DNA from: Planctomycetia bacterium
Lineage (GTDB): Bacteria; Planctomycetota; UBA8108; SXIK01
NCBI GenBank assembly: GCA_005772855.1
Contig: SXIK01000102.1
Span: 1-34,333 of the forward strand
Direction: 5' to 3'
DNA length: 34,333 nt
Position numbers and translations under genes: made by a program. Below are positions 17,776 to 26,861 of this stretch, in pieces (the stretch's first letter is position 1; each line of letters starts with the position of its first letter). The notes beneath the pieces are model-generated. The model searched no databases, was not told where the DNA came from, and saw only the letters and a program-made list of their open reading frames with translations.

Positions 17776-18200
17776 TTTATTCTGCCTTTCCTCTTGAACT
17801 TCGCCCTTCCGCAGGCAAGGCGAGCACATGCCGTGCCCTTGCTGGCTGCCAGCCTGCCGAAAGCAAGAATCCTGCATGAGAAGACCCCCTGAGTCATCAG
17901 GGCCGGGTCGTTATGTCGCCAGGCGGCGAGAGTGCATGCGCAGACTGGAATCCCTGCGGGCAAGGGATGCCAGCGCAAACTTGCGATACGCCCCATTTTG
18001 CATGACCAAGGGGCGGAAAAACCCACTGAGTGGTAAATATTTCGCTGCGCTGCGGTCAGGAATTTCCCATCTTCAGCTTCGATAGCCATGAGCTTCAACT
18101 CGACGGAGAGCCTCGCTGAATTGCAACACGGAATTGTAAGGCAAAGATTCTCTCCGGTAGCATGTTAACCAGTCAATCATTCCCTTCCAGGAGATTCGCC
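17776..18200. other. Divergent intergenic region with two perfect inverted repeats
   Basis: About 425 bp between the divergent usp and DUF1080 genes, with no convincing coding sequence. It contains CCCTGA-GTCA-TCAGGG (17887-17902) and ATCCCT-gcgggca-AGGGAT (17950-17968), perfect inverted repeats that could be operators or short hairpins. Only weak promoter-like matches were seen. AGGAG at 18189-18193 serves ATG 18201. Confidence 0.3.
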
Positions 18201-20075
18201 ATGCCAAAGACTCTTGTGCGCATCGTGCTCTTATCCTTCCCAATGCTGTTGGGCATGTCGCTAGCCGTGGTCGCACAGCCGCAGGGATTCACTTCCTTGT
18301 TCAACGGCAAGGACCTCACTGGCTGGAAGGGTCGCGTCAACGACCCGCCGGGACGCGCGAAGATGTCCCCTGCGGAGCTTGCGAGGGCACAGAAGTCCGC
18401 TGATGAGAGCATGAACGAGCACTGGAGGGTCGAGGCTGGAGCTCTCGTCTTCGACGGGAAAGGCGACAACCTCGCCACGGTGAAGGATTACGCCGATTTT
18501 GAGTTGCTCGTCGAATGGAAGATCGAGGGAACCGGCGACAGCGGGATCTACCTGCGAGGCACCCCGCAGGTGCAGATCTGGGAAAGCCCCGTTGGGTCTG
18601 GTGGGCTTCACAACAATCTGAAGAATGCCTCGAAGCCAACGAAGAAAGCGGACAGGCCGGTCGGCGATTGGAATGCGTTCAGGATTCTGATGGTCGGCGA
18701 TCGTGTGACAGTGAATCTCAACGGCGAGCAAATTGTCGACAAGGTCGTGATGGAGAACTACTGGGATCGTTCCCAGCCGATTTACCCTGGTGGCGCGATC
18801 GAGCTCCAGAGCGAGGGAAGCAGGGTCCACTTTCGTAATATCTACGTCCGAGAGCTCCCGTGCGTGGAAGGCGGCAGGGCTCCCGACTGCGTGCTGAAGA
18901 AGGGAGCCCGTGTGGCCATTGTGGGCGACTCGATCACGGAGCAAAAGCTCTACAGCCGGTTCATGGAGGCCTACCTGATCGCGTGCCTTGCCGGGCTGGA
19001 CCTGCGCGTGATCCAGCTTGGATGGGGCGGTGAGCGGGCGCCGGGATTTGCAGCCCGCATGGAGAATGATCTCATGCCCTGGAAGCCGGACGTGGTGACG
19101 ACATGCTACGGCATGAACGATGGCTCTTACCGAAAGTATGAGAAACCCATTGGCGACGCTTACGAGAAATCGATGGCCGAAATCGTGCAGCGATTGAAGT
19201 CGGCTGGAGTGACTGCCGTGGTCGGCTCGCCGGGAGCCGTCGATTTCAATAGTTTCAAGAAGCTCTCCCCCACGGACTACAATGCCAACCTCGCTGAATT
19301 GCGCGACATCGCGAAAACCATCGCAAGGGCCGAGGGCATGCCCTTTGCTGACGTCCACGGCTCCATGGTCGAGGCCATGACAAGGGCCAAGCCAGTGCTC
19401 GGTGAGAATTACGATGTGTGCGGGAGCGACGGTTTTCACCCCAATGCGAACGGCCATATCCTCATGGCCTACGCGTTCCTGCGCGCAATGGGCTGCGATG
19501 GTGATCTGGGCTCGATCACAGTCGACATGAAGGGCTTTGCGACGGCCGAGGGCGGGCACCTCGTGCTTGCATCCTCGCCGGGCAGGGCGCAGGTCGAGAG
19601 CCGACGCTACCCGTTTTGCTTTGACGGCGATGGCAAGTCGCCCAGCTCGACGCGCAGCATCGTCCCCTTCACTCCCTTCAACGAGCACCTGAATCGGCTC
19701 ATCTTGACCGTGAGGGGGCTCTCGAGCGGCCGCGCGAAAGTAAGGTGGGGGAGCGCGGTGATGTCCTTCTCGAAGGAGAAGCTTGAGAAGGGGATCAACC
19801 TCGCGGCCGAGTTTCTCGAAAACCCCTTCAGCGAGCCCTTCCGAAAGGTGGACGAGCTCGTGGGGAACAAGCAGGCCTTCGAGACGCAGGTCATCAAGGA
19901 AGGCATTACAAGCTTCCGGAGAGTTCGTGATCTGCTGGGTGGCGAGGACGCCGAGGCCAGGAAGGCTCTCGATATCGTACGCCAGCGACTCTACGCGAAG
20001 GTGGACCCGCTGCACGAGGCTGTAAGGGCAGCCGTCACTCCGGTCCGGCACGAGATTGTGGTCGATGCGGAGTAG
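18201..20075 (+). CDS. Secreted DUF1080 domain fused to SGNH/GDSL hydrolase
   Basis: 624 residues. A signal peptide (1-25, MPKTLVRIVLLSFPMLLGMSLAVVAQ) is followed by a DUF1080 (3-keto-disaccharide hydrolase/concanavalin-like) domain at about 27-222: FTSLFNGKDLTGWKG, GDSGIYLRG and IELQSEGSRVHFRNIYVRE. An SGNH esterase follows at about 235-440 with GDSITE (nucleophile Ser244), the Gly block GWGGE (274-278), GMND (Asn306) and DGFHPN (Asp410, His413). The remaining C-terminal 180 residues are not recognised. Probably exported and active on polysaccharides or their acyl esters, a common planctomycete theme. ATG 18201 has AGGAG upstream; an earlier ATG at 18162 would disturb the signal peptide. Confidence 0.87.
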   Translation: MPKTLVRIVLLSFPMLLGMSLAVVAQPQGFTSLFNGKDLTGWKGRVNDPPGRAKMSPAELARAQKSADESMNEHWRVEAGALVFDGKGDNLATVKDYADFELLVEWKIEGTGDSGIYLRGTPQVQIWESPVGSGGLHNNLKNASKPTKKADRPVGDWNAFRILMVGDRVTVNLNGEQIVDKVVMENYWDRSQPIYPGGAIELQSEGSRVHFRNIYVRELPCVEGGRAPDCVLKKGARVAIVGDSITEQKLYSRFMEAYLIACLAGLDLRVIQLGWGGERAPGFAARMENDLMPWKPDVVTTCYGMNDGSYRKYEKPIGDAYEKSMAEIVQRLKSAGVTAVVGSPGAVDFNSFKKLSPTDYNANLAELRDIAKTIARAEGMPFADVHGSMVEAMTRAKPVLGENYDVCGSDGFHPNANGHILMAYAFLRAMGCDGDLGSITVDMKGFATAEGGHLVLASSPGRAQVESRRYPFCFDGDGKSPSSTRSIVPFTPFNEHLNRLILTVRGLSSGRAKVRWGSAVMSFSKEKLEKGINLAAEFLENPFSEPFRKVDELVGNKQAFETQVIKEGITSFRRVRDLLGGEDAEARKALDIVRQRLYAKVDPLHEAVRAAVTPVRHEIVVDAE

Positions 20076-21219: not shown

Positions 21220-21983
21220 TTGACTCCCACGCGCATCTCTATTACGAGAAGTTCGACGAGGACCGAGACCAGGTAGTCTTGCGGGCTCGGGAGGCGGGTG
21301 TCGTGCGGGTGATTAACATCGGTACTGACGTTGCCACCTCGGAGAAGTCCCTTGAGCTTGCGAAGCGTTACATGGGCTTTTACGCGACCGTGGGGTTGCA
21401 CCCGACCACAAAAGTTGTCGACCTCCTGCGCGATATCGCCCTCCTCGAAACTCTCGCCAAGGCCAATCCCGACCGAGTCGTGGGTGTGGGCGAGATCGGC
21501 CTCGACTATTACTGGAAGGATGTGGCGCCGGCCGCGCAGAAGGAGAGCCTCGCCGCCCAACTCGACCTCGCCCGGCGGCTTGGACTGCCCGTCGTCTACC
21601 ATTGCCGAGACGCCCTTGAGGACTTGTTTGCTTTTCTTCAGCAGGAGCGAATCCAGCCGCCTGGAGTTTTCCATTGTTTCTCGGGCGGCCCCAGCGATGC
21701 CGAGCGTGCGCTGGCGCTGGGTTATCACGTCAGTTTTGCAGGCAACGTGACGTATCCAGGGGCGGTCAATCTCCAGGCCGCCTTGCAGGTGGTGCCTGTG
21801 GAGAAGCTCCTGCTTGAAACTGACTGTCCGTTTCTTGCGCCGCAGCCTGTGCGAGGCAAGCGAAACGAGCCCGCCCACGTCGGGCACACCCGCGACTTTA
21901 TCGCGAAATCGAAGGGGATCGATCCCGGCGAGCTCGAGCGCATCACAGAGGCAACGACAGTCTCGCTATTTGGGCTGTCTTGA
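21216..21983 (+). CDS. tatD: TatD family metal-dependent deoxyribonuclease
   Basis: 255-residue TIM-barrel amidohydrolase-fold nuclease. Metal ligands are visible in MIDSHAHLY (His5, His7), GVGEIGLDYY (the conserved Glu), VYHCRD, FHCFSG and LLETDCPFLAP. Members act as Mg-dependent 3'-5' DNases and, for some, D-aminoacyl-tRNA deacylases, so the precise role here is open. ATG 21216 overlaps the upstream TGA by ATGA and gives the canonical N-terminus; an ATG at 21177 lies within the lipoprotein gene. Confidence 0.9.
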   Translation: MIDSHAHLYYEKFDEDRDQVVLRAREAGVVRVINIGTDVATSEKSLELAKRYMGFYATVGLHPTTKVVDLLRDIALLETLAKANPDRVVGVGEIGLDYYWKDVAPAAQKESLAAQLDLARRLGLPVVYHCRDALEDLFAFLQQERIQPPGVFHCFSGGPSDAERALALGYHVSFAGNVTYPGAVNLQAALQVVPVEKLLLETDCPFLAPQPVRGKRNEPAHVGHTRDFIAKSKGIDPGELERITEATTVSLFGLS

Positions 21984-22391
21984 TGCGGCTCTCGGCGCCA
22001 GGCTTCCTGACGTCAACTCGCTTTGCCTGGGGGCCACGCGCTGTAAACAGGCGTTGGGATTCTCTTGTGGGCGTGCGATCATCAGGCCAACAGGTCCCTG
22101 AGTACGATCCGAAAAGATCGCACTCCGATCCGATCGCCGCCCTTGCACGATGCCAGAGGTCGTGACTCCTTCAGCCTCGAACTGGTCGAATGTTACCGGT
22201 TTCCTGTCCTGCGCCCCTTCCGATCGGCCGAAAGATGGGAACCATTGAGGGGTATCGCGGCGGCAAGCTTTCCGGCAATCCCCCATGGATGAGCCAAGGA
22301 ATTCCGCGTCCTTGCCTCAGGCGTTGAGAGATATTCCTGAAGTACCCGCCAGCGATGCGTCGTACTATACTTCGTGAGGTAGGAGGAGAGC
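21984..22391. other. Intergenic region before rmlB
   Basis: About 400 bp with no coding sequence I can support. A TATACT -10-like box lies at 22366-22371 but no -35 is found at the right distance. AGGAGGAGAG immediately precedes ATG 22392 of rmlB. Confidence 0.35.
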
Positions 22392-23513
22392 ATGCAGAGC
22401 CAAGGAACTATCAGCGGGCCCACCTATGTTGTGACCGGAGGAGCCGGGTTTATCGGCTCGAACTTTGTGCGTCACGCGCTGAGGAAGACAGCCGCACGTG
22501 TCATAGTTTTTGACAGGCTGACCTATGCCGGAAGCCTCTTGAATTTGACCGAGGTCTCCAGCAGCTCCCGGTTCACGTTCGTGCAGGGAGACATCGCCGA
22601 TCGCGAGGCGGTTGATGCACTTTTTCGAGACTGGCGCCCCGACACGGTCGTCAACTTCGCGGCGGAGACGCACGTGGACCGATCCATTGACGGGCCCGGA
22701 GAGTTCATCAGGACCAACCTGGTCGGCACCTTTGAGCTACTCGATGCTGCGCGCCGCCAATGGGCGAATCTTGCAGATGAGGCGAAGCGGCGTTTCCGCT
22801 TTCTCCAGGTCTCGACCGACGAGGTCTACGGCTCCCTCGGCGATACGGACCTCTTCTGCGAGACAACGCCCTATTCGCCCCGGTCGCCTTACTCCGCGTC
22901 AAAGGCTGGCGCCGATCACCTGGTCTGCGCCTATCGGCACACCTATGGCCTTCCTACCCTGATCACCAATTGTTCCAACAACTATGGGCCGTTTCAGTTT
23001 CCGGAGAAGCTGATTCCGCTCACAATTTTGAATGCCGTCGAGGGCAAGGACCTCCCGATCTACGGCGACGGTGGTAACGTGCGGGACTGGCTCCACGTCG
23101 AGGACCATTGCTCGGGCATCTTGCTCGTGCTTGAGAAGGGCGAGCCCGGCGAGAAGTACAACATTGGAGGCGGCAACGAGCGCACCAACTTGCAGGTGGT
23201 TGATGCCATTTGCTCAGCCCTGGATCGAAGACTCCCGGCGTCGAGGAACCCCGCGCTGGTGACAAGGGGCCTCGGTAGCTACCTGGACTTGAAGACTTTC
23301 GTCACGGATCGACCAGGACATGACCGAAGATACGCCATCGATTCGAGCAAGATTCGCTCCCAGCTGGGTTGGAGCCAGCAGCATACTTTCGACGCTGGCA
23401 TCGAGGACACTGTGCGCTGGTATTTAGAGAATCGGGAGTGGTCTGAGAAGATTCAGGCTGGAAAGTACGAGCGTCAACGTCTGGGATTGGCTGAGATGGG
23501 AGTCCAGGCGTGA
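22392..23513 (+). CDS. rmlB: dTDP-glucose 4,6-dehydratase
   Basis: 373-residue extended short-chain dehydrogenase that converts dTDP-glucose to dTDP-4-keto-6-deoxyglucose, the step after RmlA in rhamnose and other deoxysugar synthesis. NAD-binding GGAGFIGS (16-23), NFAAETHVDRSI, STDEVYG (141-147) and the catalytic YSASK (Tyr167, Lys171) are intact; GNVRDWLHVEDH is also typical. It opens a three-gene operon with the PHP-STAS gene and rmlC; rmlA and rmlD are not in the window. Strong Shine-Dalgarno. Confidence 0.93.
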   Translation: MQSQGTISGPTYVVTGGAGFIGSNFVRHALRKTAARVIVFDRLTYAGSLLNLTEVSSSSRFTFVQGDIADREAVDALFRDWRPDTVVNFAAETHVDRSIDGPGEFIRTNLVGTFELLDAARRQWANLADEAKRRFRFLQVSTDEVYGSLGDTDLFCETTPYSPRSPYSASKAGADHLVCAYRHTYGLPTLITNCSNNYGPFQFPEKLIPLTILNAVEGKDLPIYGDGGNVRDWLHVEDHCSGILLVLEKGEPGEKYNIGGGNERTNLQVVDAICSALDRRLPASRNPALVTRGLGSYLDLKTFVTDRPGHDRRYAIDSSKIRSQLGWSQQHTFDAGIEDTVRWYLENREWSEKIQAGKYERQRLGLAEMGVQA

Positions 23514-23538
23514 ATCTGAAAGATTGGGTTGACGAAGG

Positions 23539-24717
23539 ATGGAGCGTGACGGCTTGGTGACTGACAGGATTCGAATTCCAGGGTTCTCACGTGCGGACCT
23601 TCATATTCACACGAATTACTCTGACGGCGTTGCCTCGCCGGAGGACGTTCTCAACTATTACGCAATCCATTCCGAAGCCAGCGTCATTGCGATCACGGAC
23701 CACGACACGATCGACGGGGCGCTTCACGCGAAGCGCCACGCTGAAAATCATGGCGACGTTTACGGGCACATCGAGGTGATCGTGGGGGAAGAGGTGTCGA
23801 CGAGCGACGGGCACGTGATCGGGCTCTTCATTGACCAGTGGATTCCTCCGGGCATGAGCGCCCGGAGAACTGTCGAGGTGATCCATTCCCAGGGCGGCAT
23901 TGCGATTGCGCCTCATCCCTACACGAGCTGGATGCGTTGGGCAGGGCTCATCGGCGTTGGGGACCTGATCAAGGAGATTCCGTTTGACGGTGTGGAGACA
24001 AGAAATTCCAACTTTACCGAGGTGTTCGCGAACCGTAAGGCCGTTCGGAACGCTGGCGATGTCGCTCGGCTGGGCAACTCCGACGGGCACTTTCTCGGGG
24101 CGGAGGGGCATTGCTTCACTGACTTCCCCGGCCGCACCGCCGAGGATCTGCGTCAGGCAATCCTCGAGCGTTCGACGCAGCCAGGGGGACGATGTTACGG
24201 CCTGTGGACGCTTTGCAAATTTGTGCTGGGGCAGGCCCGCGCGCGTGGCTCGATCTGGCCGCGCAGAGGAGACTTTCGACGAGAGTCTGCTGTGGGCGGG
24301 TTGCAGATTCGCATTCATCGGGAACCGGCTCAAGACATGGCGACCGTTGCGCCCCTGGGTCGCATTGATGCCCTGTCGATGCCGGAGCTCAAGGAAACGC
24401 TGCGACTCCTGGCGCAGGCACGACAGTCGGTCATAGTGGATCTGTCGTGCGTGGGCGGGGTCGATGCCTCCGGCGTGACGGCCCTTGTTGCCGGGCTGAG
24501 ACATGCCCGGGAAAACGGCGTCGGGTTCTGCCTTGCCGGCGTTCCACCGGTTTGCCAGCGTGCGCTGCGAGGCGCGGGGCTTTCGCGCGTGTTTCCGCAA
24601 ACGGGATCGATCGGAGGAGCCAGGGCTGTCGTGCTGGGACAGGCCAACAGCGTCCCCGGGGTGGTAAATGCCAAAGACGGTGGCGCGAGGAAATGCGTGG
24701 GAGGAGGCGTCCAGTGA
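23539..24717 (+). CDS. PHP phosphoesterase domain fused to a STAS domain
   Basis: 392 residues. The N-terminal PHP domain (about 17-225) keeps the metal-binding pattern [11 protein letters not shown] (His22, His24, Asp29), TDHDT (54-57), GEEV (83-86), PHPY (126) and GNSDGHF (Asp182, His184), predicting a metal-dependent phosphoesterase. The C-terminal segment (about 255-365) is a STAS domain like anti-sigma-factor antagonists: [15 protein letters not shown], then [17 protein letters not shown] with the DASG motif whose Ser311 is at the phosphorylatable position. PHP-STAS is not an arrangement I know. It sits between rmlB (25 bp gap) and rmlC (GTGA overlap), so it may regulate or process something in surface polysaccharide synthesis; that is inference. 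GTG 23557 is an alternative start. Confidence 0.8.
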
Positions 24718-25265
24718 AAGTCATCCCGGGCGAGCTGGAAGGGACGAAGATTCTCGAGCCCGTGGTGCATCGCGACCAACGAGGCTTTTTCCTTGAGACG
24801 TATCACGCCAGGAAGTATGCCGAAGTGGGATTGCCGACATTCGTGCAGGACAACCATTCTCGCTCTGGCTTTGGAACTCTGCGGGGTCTTCACGCGCAAC
24901 GGTGTCATCCACAGGGAAAGCTTGTGCGGGTGATCGAGGGCGAGATCTACGATGTGGCTGTGGATGTGCGGAAAGGTTCGCCGACCTTTGGCCGCTGGAT
25001 GGGTGTGGTTTTGTCAGCGGAGAACTTTCGTCAGATATACGTGCCTCCTGGTTTTTTGCATGGCTTCTGTGTCGTGAGCGAGATGGCACAGGTCGAGTAC
25101 AAGTGCTCAGACTTTTACGACCCGTCGGACGAACTCGCCGTAATCTGGAACGACCCCGGGCTCGCGATCACCTGGCCCGTGGCCAGGCCCATCCTCTCCG
25201 AGAAGGACCAGTCCCATCCGACGCTGGATCGGATCCTCGAGAAGCTGGCGACCTATCAACGGTAG
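24714..25265 (+). CDS. rmlC: dTDP-4-dehydrorhamnose 3,5-epimerase
   Basis: 183-residue cupin enzyme of dTDP-rhamnose synthesis. RGFFLETY (23-30), LRGLH with the catalytic His60, [18 protein letters not shown] (69-86) and PPGFLHGF (111-118) match the family, and the length is normal. The GTG start overlaps the PHP-STAS stop as GTGA; translation upstream is unrelated. The last gene of the rmlB operon. Confidence 0.92.
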
Positions 25266-25346
25266 GGCCGCGAGCCAGCCTTGAGGTTCACAAGTTCGGC
25301 ATCAACTCTGTCCGCAGTGACACCCGCGTTCGGTGGATTTGTGACT

Positions 25347-25505
25347 TCACTGTTCCAGGCGCGACTTGGAGTAGAGTGGCGGTGGACCTGGTTCTTACAG
25401 GACACGTTCACTATTGCCACCGGACGCGCCGCATTGGCCGGGCGTGGGACCCGAAGAGTGAATGCGTTTACCACATCACGACGGCAGCCGGAGGTGTGTC
25501 ACTCC
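25347..25505 (+). pseudogene. Remnant of a metallophosphoesterase, cut off by repeat copy E
   Basis: Translation from 25376 reads VAVDLVLTGHVHYCHRT then VYHITTAAGGVSLH, the C-terminal metal-binding core of calcineurin/purple-acid-phosphatase-type metallophosphoesterases (GHVH motif). The preceding piece LFQARLGVE (25350-25376) lies in another frame, implying a frameshift near 25375. The match ends exactly where repeat copy E begins (25506). No start or N-terminal domain is present, so this is a decayed fragment. Confidence 0.55.
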
Positions 25506-25562
25506 ATACTCCTCGCGGGGGAGGAAGACCTCCACCGCACCGGCCGCCTGGCGGCGTCCCTC
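25506..25562 (-). repeat. Palindromic intergenic repeat, copy E (inverted, right-end half)
   Basis: ATACTCCTCGCGGGGGAGG at 25506 followed by AAGACCTCCACCGCACCGG is the inverted right end of copy A, and it matches copy D for about 55 bp including the GCCGCC..GGCG..CGTCC block. The hairpin GGGGGAGG-aaga-CCTCCaCC is kept with one mismatch. The left half is absent. Confidence 0.65.
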
Positions 25563-25916
25563 CGTCTCGCGTCTTGTGCTCGCTCCGACCGTTGGAGCCA
25601 ATTTCAGTAGTCGCTCCTGGCTTCGGACGGCTGTACGCCCGCGATGCTGTCCCGCCGCTCTCTACGCCTTGTGCGGCACGGCTCGGACTTTTCGTACTCT
25701 CCGTATACGTCTTCGTCCTCGCTCCCGGGGTACCCGCGAGAGAGGGCCGAGCGGGCATTCGCTCGGCCTCGGGCCTTACGGATCGACTACTGAAATAGGC
25801 TCTTGGCCGCTTCGGAACGAGCCGTCTTCACGACGGATCGCCGACGTTCGAGCGGCAAGAGCGTCCCGGAACTTGCAAATTGGGCGGGCCGCTAGAGTGC
25901 CGCCCAGTGCGCTCGG
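25563..25916. other. Intergenic region with a strong hairpin
   Basis: About 350 bp between convergent rmlC and trxB, with no convincing coding sequence. A 9-bp perfect stem GGCCGAGCG/CGCTCGGCC (25745-25768, 6-nt loop) extends by two pairs past a bulge. It has no T-tract but could terminate transcription from either side. Confidence 0.4.
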
Positions 25917-26861
25917 TTACTCCACTCCATGTTCGGCAAGCCATCTCTCGCAGTCGAGGGCAGCCATGCAGCCAGTGCCGGCGGCGCTGACGGCCTGGCG
26001 GTAGACTTTGTCGACGACGTCGCCGCAAGCGAAGACGCCCTCAACGTTCGTGAGCGTCCGGCCCGGCCTCACCTTGATGTAGCCGACCTCGTCCAGTTCG
26101 AGCTGGCCAGCGAGGAACTTCGAGTTGGGATCATGGCCGATTGCGTAGAAAATTCCGCTGCAAGGTATTGACCGCGCCTGGCCGGTCTTCACGTTCCTGA
26201 GCCTGGCCCCCGTGACCTTGTCGGTCCCTTCGGCATCCTCCAGCACGCTGTTCCACACGAGCTCGATCTTGGGATGTTTGAGTGCTCGCTCCTGCATGAT
26301 CTTGCTTGCCCGCAGCTCATCGCGTCGGTGCACAAGATAGACCCTTGAAGCGAACTTGGTAAGGTAGGTCGATTCCTCGACCGCAGTGTCGCCCCCGCCG
26401 ATCACGACCAGGTCCTTGTTCCGGAAGATTGGGAGCGCCCCGTCGCACACTGCACAGGCGCTGATTCCCTTCGTCCAGAGCCTCTCCTCGCCAGGTACAT
26501 GGAGGCGCTTCGCATTGGCACCGGTTGCGACAATGACGGCGTGAGTCTCGACTTCCCGTTCGGATGTCTTTACGCGGAAGGGTTTCTTGGAGATGTCGAC
26601 GTGAACGACATCCTCCCCAACGCATCGGGTGCCGTAGTCGATCGCCTGCTTGCGAAAGTGCGCCATGAGCTCGGGGCCCGAGATACCGGGGTGAGGGAAG
26701 CCTGGGTAGTTCTCAACCTCGGTGGTGGTCATGAGCTGCCCACCCGGGATTCCGCCCGCCTGGAAACCCTCGAAGAGGAGCGGCTTCAAGTTGGCTCGAC
26801 CCGCGTAAATGGCTGCGGTAAACCCGGCGGGGCCGGAACCGACGACGACGACTTTCTCCAT
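25917..26861 (-). CDS. trxB: Thioredoxin-disulfide reductase
   Basis: 314-residue flavoprotein that reduces thioredoxin with NADPH. FAD-binding GSGPAG (8-13), the redox-active CAVC (136-139) in the usual CxxC position, the NADPH-binding GGGDTA (155-160), the HRRDELRA motif and the final FACGDVVD are intact. ATG 26861 has GAAGGA about 9 nt upstream; a TTG 18 bases earlier would overlap that site. Transcribed away from hsp20, with repeat copy F between. Confidence 0.94.

Follow-up and report, generated by a model that had tools for sequence, protein, structure and literature searches.

A predicted PHP phosphoesterase fused to a STAS domain with alanine at the canonical phospho-acceptor position, encoded between rmlB and rmlC in one Planctomycetota family

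The window, which is the whole 34,333-nt stretch of Planctomycetota DNA that was analysed, contains at positions 23539–24717 a single open reading frame of 392 residues, free of internal stop codons and frameshifts, that encodes a PHP domain followed by a STAS domain (this gene, its parts, and the rmlB and rmlC genes that flank it lie on the forward strand). The start codon of this PHP–STAS fusion is uncertain, with in-frame TTG (23554) and GTG (23557) codons just downstream of 23539. Its direct neighbours are two genes of dTDP-rhamnose synthesis, with tatD coming next. Upstream, across a gap of 25 nt, lies rmlB (22392–23513), which encodes dTDP-glucose 4,6-dehydratase (TIGR01181, 483 bits against a cut-off of 365). 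Downstream lies rmlC (24714–25265), which encodes dTDP-4-dehydrorhamnose 3,5-epimerase (TIGR01221, 228 bits against a cut-off of 156) and whose GTG start shares bases with the TGA stop of the fusion in a GTGA overlap; the two genes are presumably translationally coupled. The original prediction had placed the gene inside an rml operon. Its position between rmlB and rmlC stands, but the genome carries rmlA and rmlD elsewhere, on contigs C44 and C112, and the locus is therefore an rmlB–fusion–rmlC cluster and not a full rml operon. A search for sigma-70-like promoters and terminators over 21900–25950 gave none above shuffled sequence, with a model that means little for the host organism, and no tandem repeats were found in 23300–25000. 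Elsewhere in the window, at 18162–20075, one frame combines a 3-keto-disaccharide hydrolase (PF06439) with a GDSL-type lipase/acylhydrolase (PF13472).

The N-terminal portion of the protein (residues 16–236; 23584–24246) consists of the PHP domain and its own C-terminal helix, and is recognized above the curated Pfam cut-offs by both PHP (PF02811, residues 20–89, 5.9e-9) and PHP_C (PF13263, residues 164–213, 7.6e-5). The metal-site residues, whose codons fall within 23602–24090, are all present: H22 (codon at 23602), H24 (23608), D29 (23623), H55 (23701), E85 (23791), H92 (23812), H126 (23914), D182 (24082), and H184 (24088). We take these nine residues to be the metal ligands by correspondence to CV1693 (2YB1). 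In an alignment of 23 PHP proteins, seven of them (H22, H24, H55, E85, H126, D182, and H184) are invariant and D29 is conserved at a level of at least 90%, while some distant relatives have E or D in place of H92. Nine-residue sites that hold three metals are described for PHP domains in PMC6616362. With the Pfam match and all nine residues in place, the PHP domain with an intact metal site that had been predicted is confirmed. A full-length AlphaFold model (mean pLDDT 82.6, pTM 0.79) has pLDDT values of mostly 87–98 in the PHP part, with lower values at about residues 131–140 and 221–240, and a Foldseek search with this part returns TM0559 (2ANU, 1.6e-12) and RNase AM (7UG9, 2.6e-10). The protein scores below every NCBIfam cut-off, namely those for CehA/McbA (55.6 of 80 bits), RNase AM (RNM; 47.3 of 375 bits), and nucleoside bisphosphate phosphatase (43.4 of 400 bits), and it is therefore not a member of those named PHP families. 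Judged from its sequence, the domain is probably a metal-dependent phosphoesterase, with catalysis predicted from the retained site.

A linker (residues 237–254; 24247–24300; pLDDT 51–70) connects the PHP part to the STAS domain (residues 255–370; 24301–24648), which was delimited using Pfam, with a core of residues 270–353, and a separate structural model. Two profiles match above their curated cut-offs, STAS (PF01740, residues 270–353, 1.1e-10) and STAS_2 (PF13466, residues 274–348, 1.4e-10); the model for anti-sigma factor antagonists, TIGR00377, scores below its cut-off (35.3 of 53.45 bits). An AlphaFold model of the STAS domain alone, made with 16 STAS rows, has a mean pLDDT of 89.2 and a pTM of 0.80, with the core at about 97. 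The closest structure found by Foldseek is TM1442 (1VC1, 2.6e-8, TMt 0.87), followed by RsbV (6M36, 2.8e-7, TMt 0.93), and matches to MlaB are weaker (3.5e-4 to 1.4e-3). TM1442 is also the best sequence match of the domain in the PDB (9e-9). The joining of a STAS domain to the PHP domain is thus borne out by profiles over their cut-offs and by confidently predicted folds, and the matches to 1VC1 and 6M36 settle the concern that the STAS fold might be lacking.

A frameshift or an assembly error that joins two genes could in principle create such a frame, and the sequence does come from a draft assembly of 244 contigs. The answer is provided by an ortholog of 384 residues and 67% identity (L010, 1483–2637) in a genome from another genus of the same family (G001), where the rmlB–fusion–rmlC order and the GTGA overlap are both kept, and the linker motif WPRR.DF..E.AVGGL is conserved. 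Between the two copies, the Nei–Gojobori (NG86) method gives a dN of 0.16 and a dS of 1.45 for the PHP core (dN/dS near 0.11), and a dN of 0.30 and a dS of 1.61 for the STAS domain (dN/dS 0.19), with dS near saturation in both comparisons; purifying selection looks to act on PHP and STAS alike. As the same fusion, gene order, and overlap occur in a second genus and a different assembly, with signs of such selection on both domains, we regard an artefact as excluded for practical purposes and give it a negligible chance. In one Planctomycetota family, PHP and STAS are truly joined in a single protein. The G001 ortholog locus also holds an ECF-type-sigma-like frame, read by eye, that is convergent to rmlC (L194, 5362–6027), and the window has no counterpart there.

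The distribution of the fusion is narrow. Among 59 genomes ranked by relatedness, the window's own included, a full-length match is present only in the window's genome (G000) and G001, and these are again the two with a match to both domains among 392 genomes drawn evenly from the same, larger phylum. The phylum of a Chloroflexaceae relative was sampled evenly with 251 genomes; matches at E ≤ 1e-10 occur in 221 of these, and among the matches listed none extends into the STAS part. At E ≤ 1e-20, a threshold that would miss a fusion with a divergent PHP domain, the phylum of a deltaproteobacterial relative has one matching genome among 297 evenly drawn from the larger group, in the PHP part only, and that of an Armatimonadota relative has none among 124, in a search run without a positive control. 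A wider search of genome contigs, which may exclude the window's own genome, gave 74 distinct loci, and the matches listed are all in the PHP part, with the farthest end at residue 262. Long open frames (629–864 aa) of some Chloroflexota PHP matches were considered as further fusions and rejected; their C-termini lack a STAS domain, and they are long because the frame stays open upstream of the gene in GC-rich DNA. Among the papers searched, we found no description of a PHP–STAS architecture, although a survey of the myxobacterial phosphatome (PMC2887360) may mention such a protein. We conclude that PHP–STAS is a new domain architecture of narrow distribution; the original prediction had not recognized it among described systems, a view with which the literature search agrees, and had called for a search of other genomes, which yielded the G001 ortholog.

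The STAS domain contains the sequence D309-A310-S311-G312 (24463–24474), whose serine had been singled out as that of an anti-sigma antagonist. In SpoIIAA, the phosphorylated serine is reported as Ser58 (PMC3517971). When positions are counted in the PDB alignment, the motif of chain 1TH8_B is D57-S58-S59-G60, such that Ser58 comes directly after the motif Asp (DSSG). Chain 1TID_B is the same SpoIIAA protein and reads D-A-S-G, which we deduce from the two chains to be the S58A form. The motif of the fusion aligns with these SpoIIAA motifs, with Ala310 (24466–24468) in place of Ser at the acceptor position. The corresponding motif of the G001 ortholog is D-A-A-G, and the S311 position is not conserved. 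The serine of the DASG motif is therefore present as had been described, but it is not the phospho-acceptor, where A310 is found, and the ortholog does not keep it. In our 16-row alignment, both fusion rows have Ala in the acceptor column (two sequences from one family, to which the statement that the residue is always Ala refers) and all 14 other STAS rows have Ser. Ser also occupies this position in each of the seven remaining STAS proteins of the window's genome, six of them as rows of the alignment and the seventh (C13) read by eye from the motif INSTG. By eye, G001 has Ser there in its six further STAS domains too, one of them with a divergent motif (SSHA). With Ala at the acceptor position in both copies, canonical kinase switching is not supported. 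The fusion STAS domain has probably kept the anti-sigma-antagonist fold while becoming phosphorylation-blind at the canonical position, as its aligned residues suggest. Another residue, such as S311 in the window's copy, could be modifiable.

The genomic distribution of possible regulators points in the same direction as regards this gene. A search of the window's genome with PF13581, the profile of RsbW-type kinases, gives eight matches, six of them over the cut-off, and each of the six has a STAS domain no more than about 1 kb away (on contigs C164, C6, C10, C161, C157, and C13). The contig of the fusion (C77) has no PF13581 match and none of the genome's five SpoIIE phosphatases. Two of the eight STAS domains of the genome, that on C20 and that of the fusion, are without a PF13581 match on their contig. 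The partner kinase of the RsbW type that had been suggested was thus not found on C77, and each of the six strong candidates is accompanied by its own STAS domain. Any kinase partner would have to act in trans and, by the same alignment, would be unable to phosphorylate the canonical position. The C13 locus (L006, L218; G000) has a single 478-residue frame with an N-terminal STAS domain, which bears the INSTG motif, and a C-terminal RsbW-type kinase, placing antagonist and kinase in one chain. Separately, five Planctomycetota loci (L221, L223, L225, L230, and L232) have Pfam-confirmed trios of kinase (PF13581), STAS, and MlaE (PF02405) genes, and further trios of RsbW-type kinase, STAS, and MlaE permease are seen at L224, L226, and L229. 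These trios suggest phospho-regulated MlaB-like subunits, a question that PMC7367683 leaves open.

The nearest relatives of the PHP domain are stand-alone Chloroflexota proteins with about 35–48% identity over the domain, which have a similar C-terminal tail, end after the PHP domain's own helix, and carry no STAS domain. Stand-alone Planctomycetota copies (L195–L198) are more distant and have an N-terminal extension. In a PHP tree of 23 rows, the two fusions join each other (100/99) with no supported sister group. At one of the Planctomycetota loci (L195, 3740–7106; G187), the PHP gene is tail to tail with a STAS gene, with 14 bp between them, and a gene for a GAF–SpoIIE–HATPase protein comes after the STAS gene. 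We considered this convergent arrangement as an ancestral pair and rejected it, as the genes are tail to tail and the arrangement is absent at the PHP gene of a member of the same family (G213, L197).

The neighbours of the stand-alone PHP genes were inspected in 28 Chloroflexota genomes, of which 20 are the best matches and eight are a non-random choice made for long open frames. Glycolipid-type genes (acyltransferase, PimA-like, or CDP-alcohol transferase) are found beside PHP in 14 of the 28; in 12 genomes it is flanked by acyltransferase-like genes and a PimA-like glycosyltransferase, and in two by a CDP-alcohol phosphatidyltransferase. Loci with the acyltransferase-like/PimA-like setting are L183, L188/L203, L189/L204, L192, and L205–L212 (plus L186 and L187), and at L204 Pfam identifies two Lip_A_acyltrans, a Glycos_transf_1, and a CDP-OH_P_transf domain. 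No such gene set was detected in the other 14 neighbourhoods, many of which have only about 1.5 kb of flank; one of them (L190) has a weak glycosyltransferase match. None of the stand-alone PHP genes examined has rml genes beside it, apart from a weak RmlB-like match in L190, and the rml link is therefore specific to the Planctomycetota family of the fusion. The Chloroflexota neighbourhoods suggest that the stand-alone PHP protein is a candidate phosphatase of phosphoglycolipid synthesis, a reading that would fit the rmlB and rmlC neighbours of the fusion as another envelope glycan pathway.

We hypothesize that the fusion takes part in the synthesis of envelope glycoconjugates as a PHP phosphoesterase and carries a phosphorylation-blind STAS docking module, and we hold this to be about evenly balanced between right and wrong. 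The PHP domain, together with RmlB and RmlC, would serve the synthesis of an envelope glycan or glycoconjugate, where it may dephosphorylate an intermediate or a by-product that is a sugar phosphate or a glycolipid phosphate. The STAS domain would be an always-available docking module that tethers the enzyme to a protein partner, with no kinase-operated switch. Both the pathway and the constitutive docking are what we infer, and there are precedents for the parts. SypA S56A is reported to be active in biofilm formation (PMC4517449), STAS proteins that can act unphosphorylated and that concern polysaccharide are covered in a review (PMC8256260), and MlaB is reported to dock on MlaF, a non-sigma partner (PMC7367683).

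Several other explanations compete with this docking proposal. The original prediction had suggested a possible link between partner switching and cell-surface sugar synthesis. In a classical switch of this kind, the STAS serine would be phosphorylated by an RsbW-type kinase and dephosphorylated by a phosphatase, gating the PHP enzyme or a sigma factor that controls rhamnose synthesis. Such a switch would agree with the proximity of the fold to TM1442 and RsbV, with the six above-cut-off kinases and five SpoIIE phosphatases of the genome, and with SypA–SypE as a reported case of STAS control over polysaccharide biofilm formation (PMC4517449). It is contradicted by the Ala at the acceptor position of both copies, by a contig that lacks kinase and PPM phosphatase genes, and by the prior pairing of every above-cut-off kinase with a STAS domain, such that we find serine-phosphorylation switching quite unlikely here. 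A second rival starts from the same alanine. Like SpoIIAA S58A, the STAS domain could bind an RsbW-type kinase permanently, and an anti-sigma factor would then be titrated according to how much enzyme is present or what state it is in. The DASG sequence is the motif of the S58A-type SpoIIAA chain crystallised with SpoIIAB (1TID), SypA S56A reportedly stays active (PMC4517449), and the genome offers candidate kinases; against this, none of them is nearby and every strong one adjoins a STAS domain. We consider such titration rather unlikely. Its extension, that the enzyme is itself a permanent, kinase-proof anti-anti-sigma factor whose abundance or substrate occupancy informs transcription of the state of rhamnose or envelope glycans, we consider a doubtful prospect.

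Two further alternatives concern the partner and the substrate. The STAS domain might dock on the ATPase of an ABC transporter, as MlaB does on MlaF, and so bring the enzyme to an exporter of lipids or glycolipids. Among the Planctomycetota STAS proteins most closely related to this domain, several are encoded next to MlaE permeases, and MlaB is reported to bind MlaF in a manner weakened by the phosphomimetic T52E (PMC7367683). Among its direct neighbours, however, the fusion has no MlaE or ATPase gene, and its fold match to MlaB is weaker than that to RsbV, which leaves transporter docking improbable in our estimate. It would be less probable still, in absolute terms a very slim chance, that the PHP domain acts on phosphotyrosine in proteins, in the manner of CpsB, YwqE, or Wzb, and so controls a polysaccharide tyrosine kinase. 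PHP-type enzymes with this activity are reported from exopolysaccharide loci (PMC2364625, PMC10816263), but the top 50 Foldseek matches include no CpsB or YwqE structure, and the best sequence models, all below cut-off, are CehA/McbA, RNase RNM, and nucleoside bisphosphate phosphatase.

If our docking proposal is true, the fusion would be a natural case in which the best-studied phospho-switch fold has had its switch removed and serves an enzyme simply as a docking tag. The fusion would also caution against reading every DxSG-bearing STAS domain as a partner switch, because the serine here is one residue off the working position. The PHP family behind the fusion, which in Chloroflexota often has genes for acyltransferases, PimA-like proteins, and CDP-alcohol transferases as neighbours, is a candidate envelope glycolipid phosphatase that lends itself to testing.

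The fusion has the STAS fold and the motif position in common with SpoIIAA, RsbV, and TM1442; however, it has Ala in place of their phospho-Ser, an attached enzyme, and no kinase gene nearby. MlaB is a STAS protein reported to act through docking on its partner MlaF (PMC7367683), but as a free, minimal STAS domain with Thr52, in contrast to the enzyme-attached domain with Ala described here. SypA of Vibrio fischeri is a STAS protein tied to polysaccharide biofilm and reported to be active unphosphorylated (PMC4517449); unlike the fusion, it keeps Ser56 and is switched by SypE. On the enzyme side, TrpH, RNase AM, 3',5'-nucleoside bisphosphate phosphatase, and CehA/McbA share the PHP fold and the metal-site motifs, whereas the fusion has a shorter core with STAS appended. 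Compared with its closest PHP relatives, the stand-alone Chloroflexota proteins, the fusion carries a STAS domain and has different neighbours.
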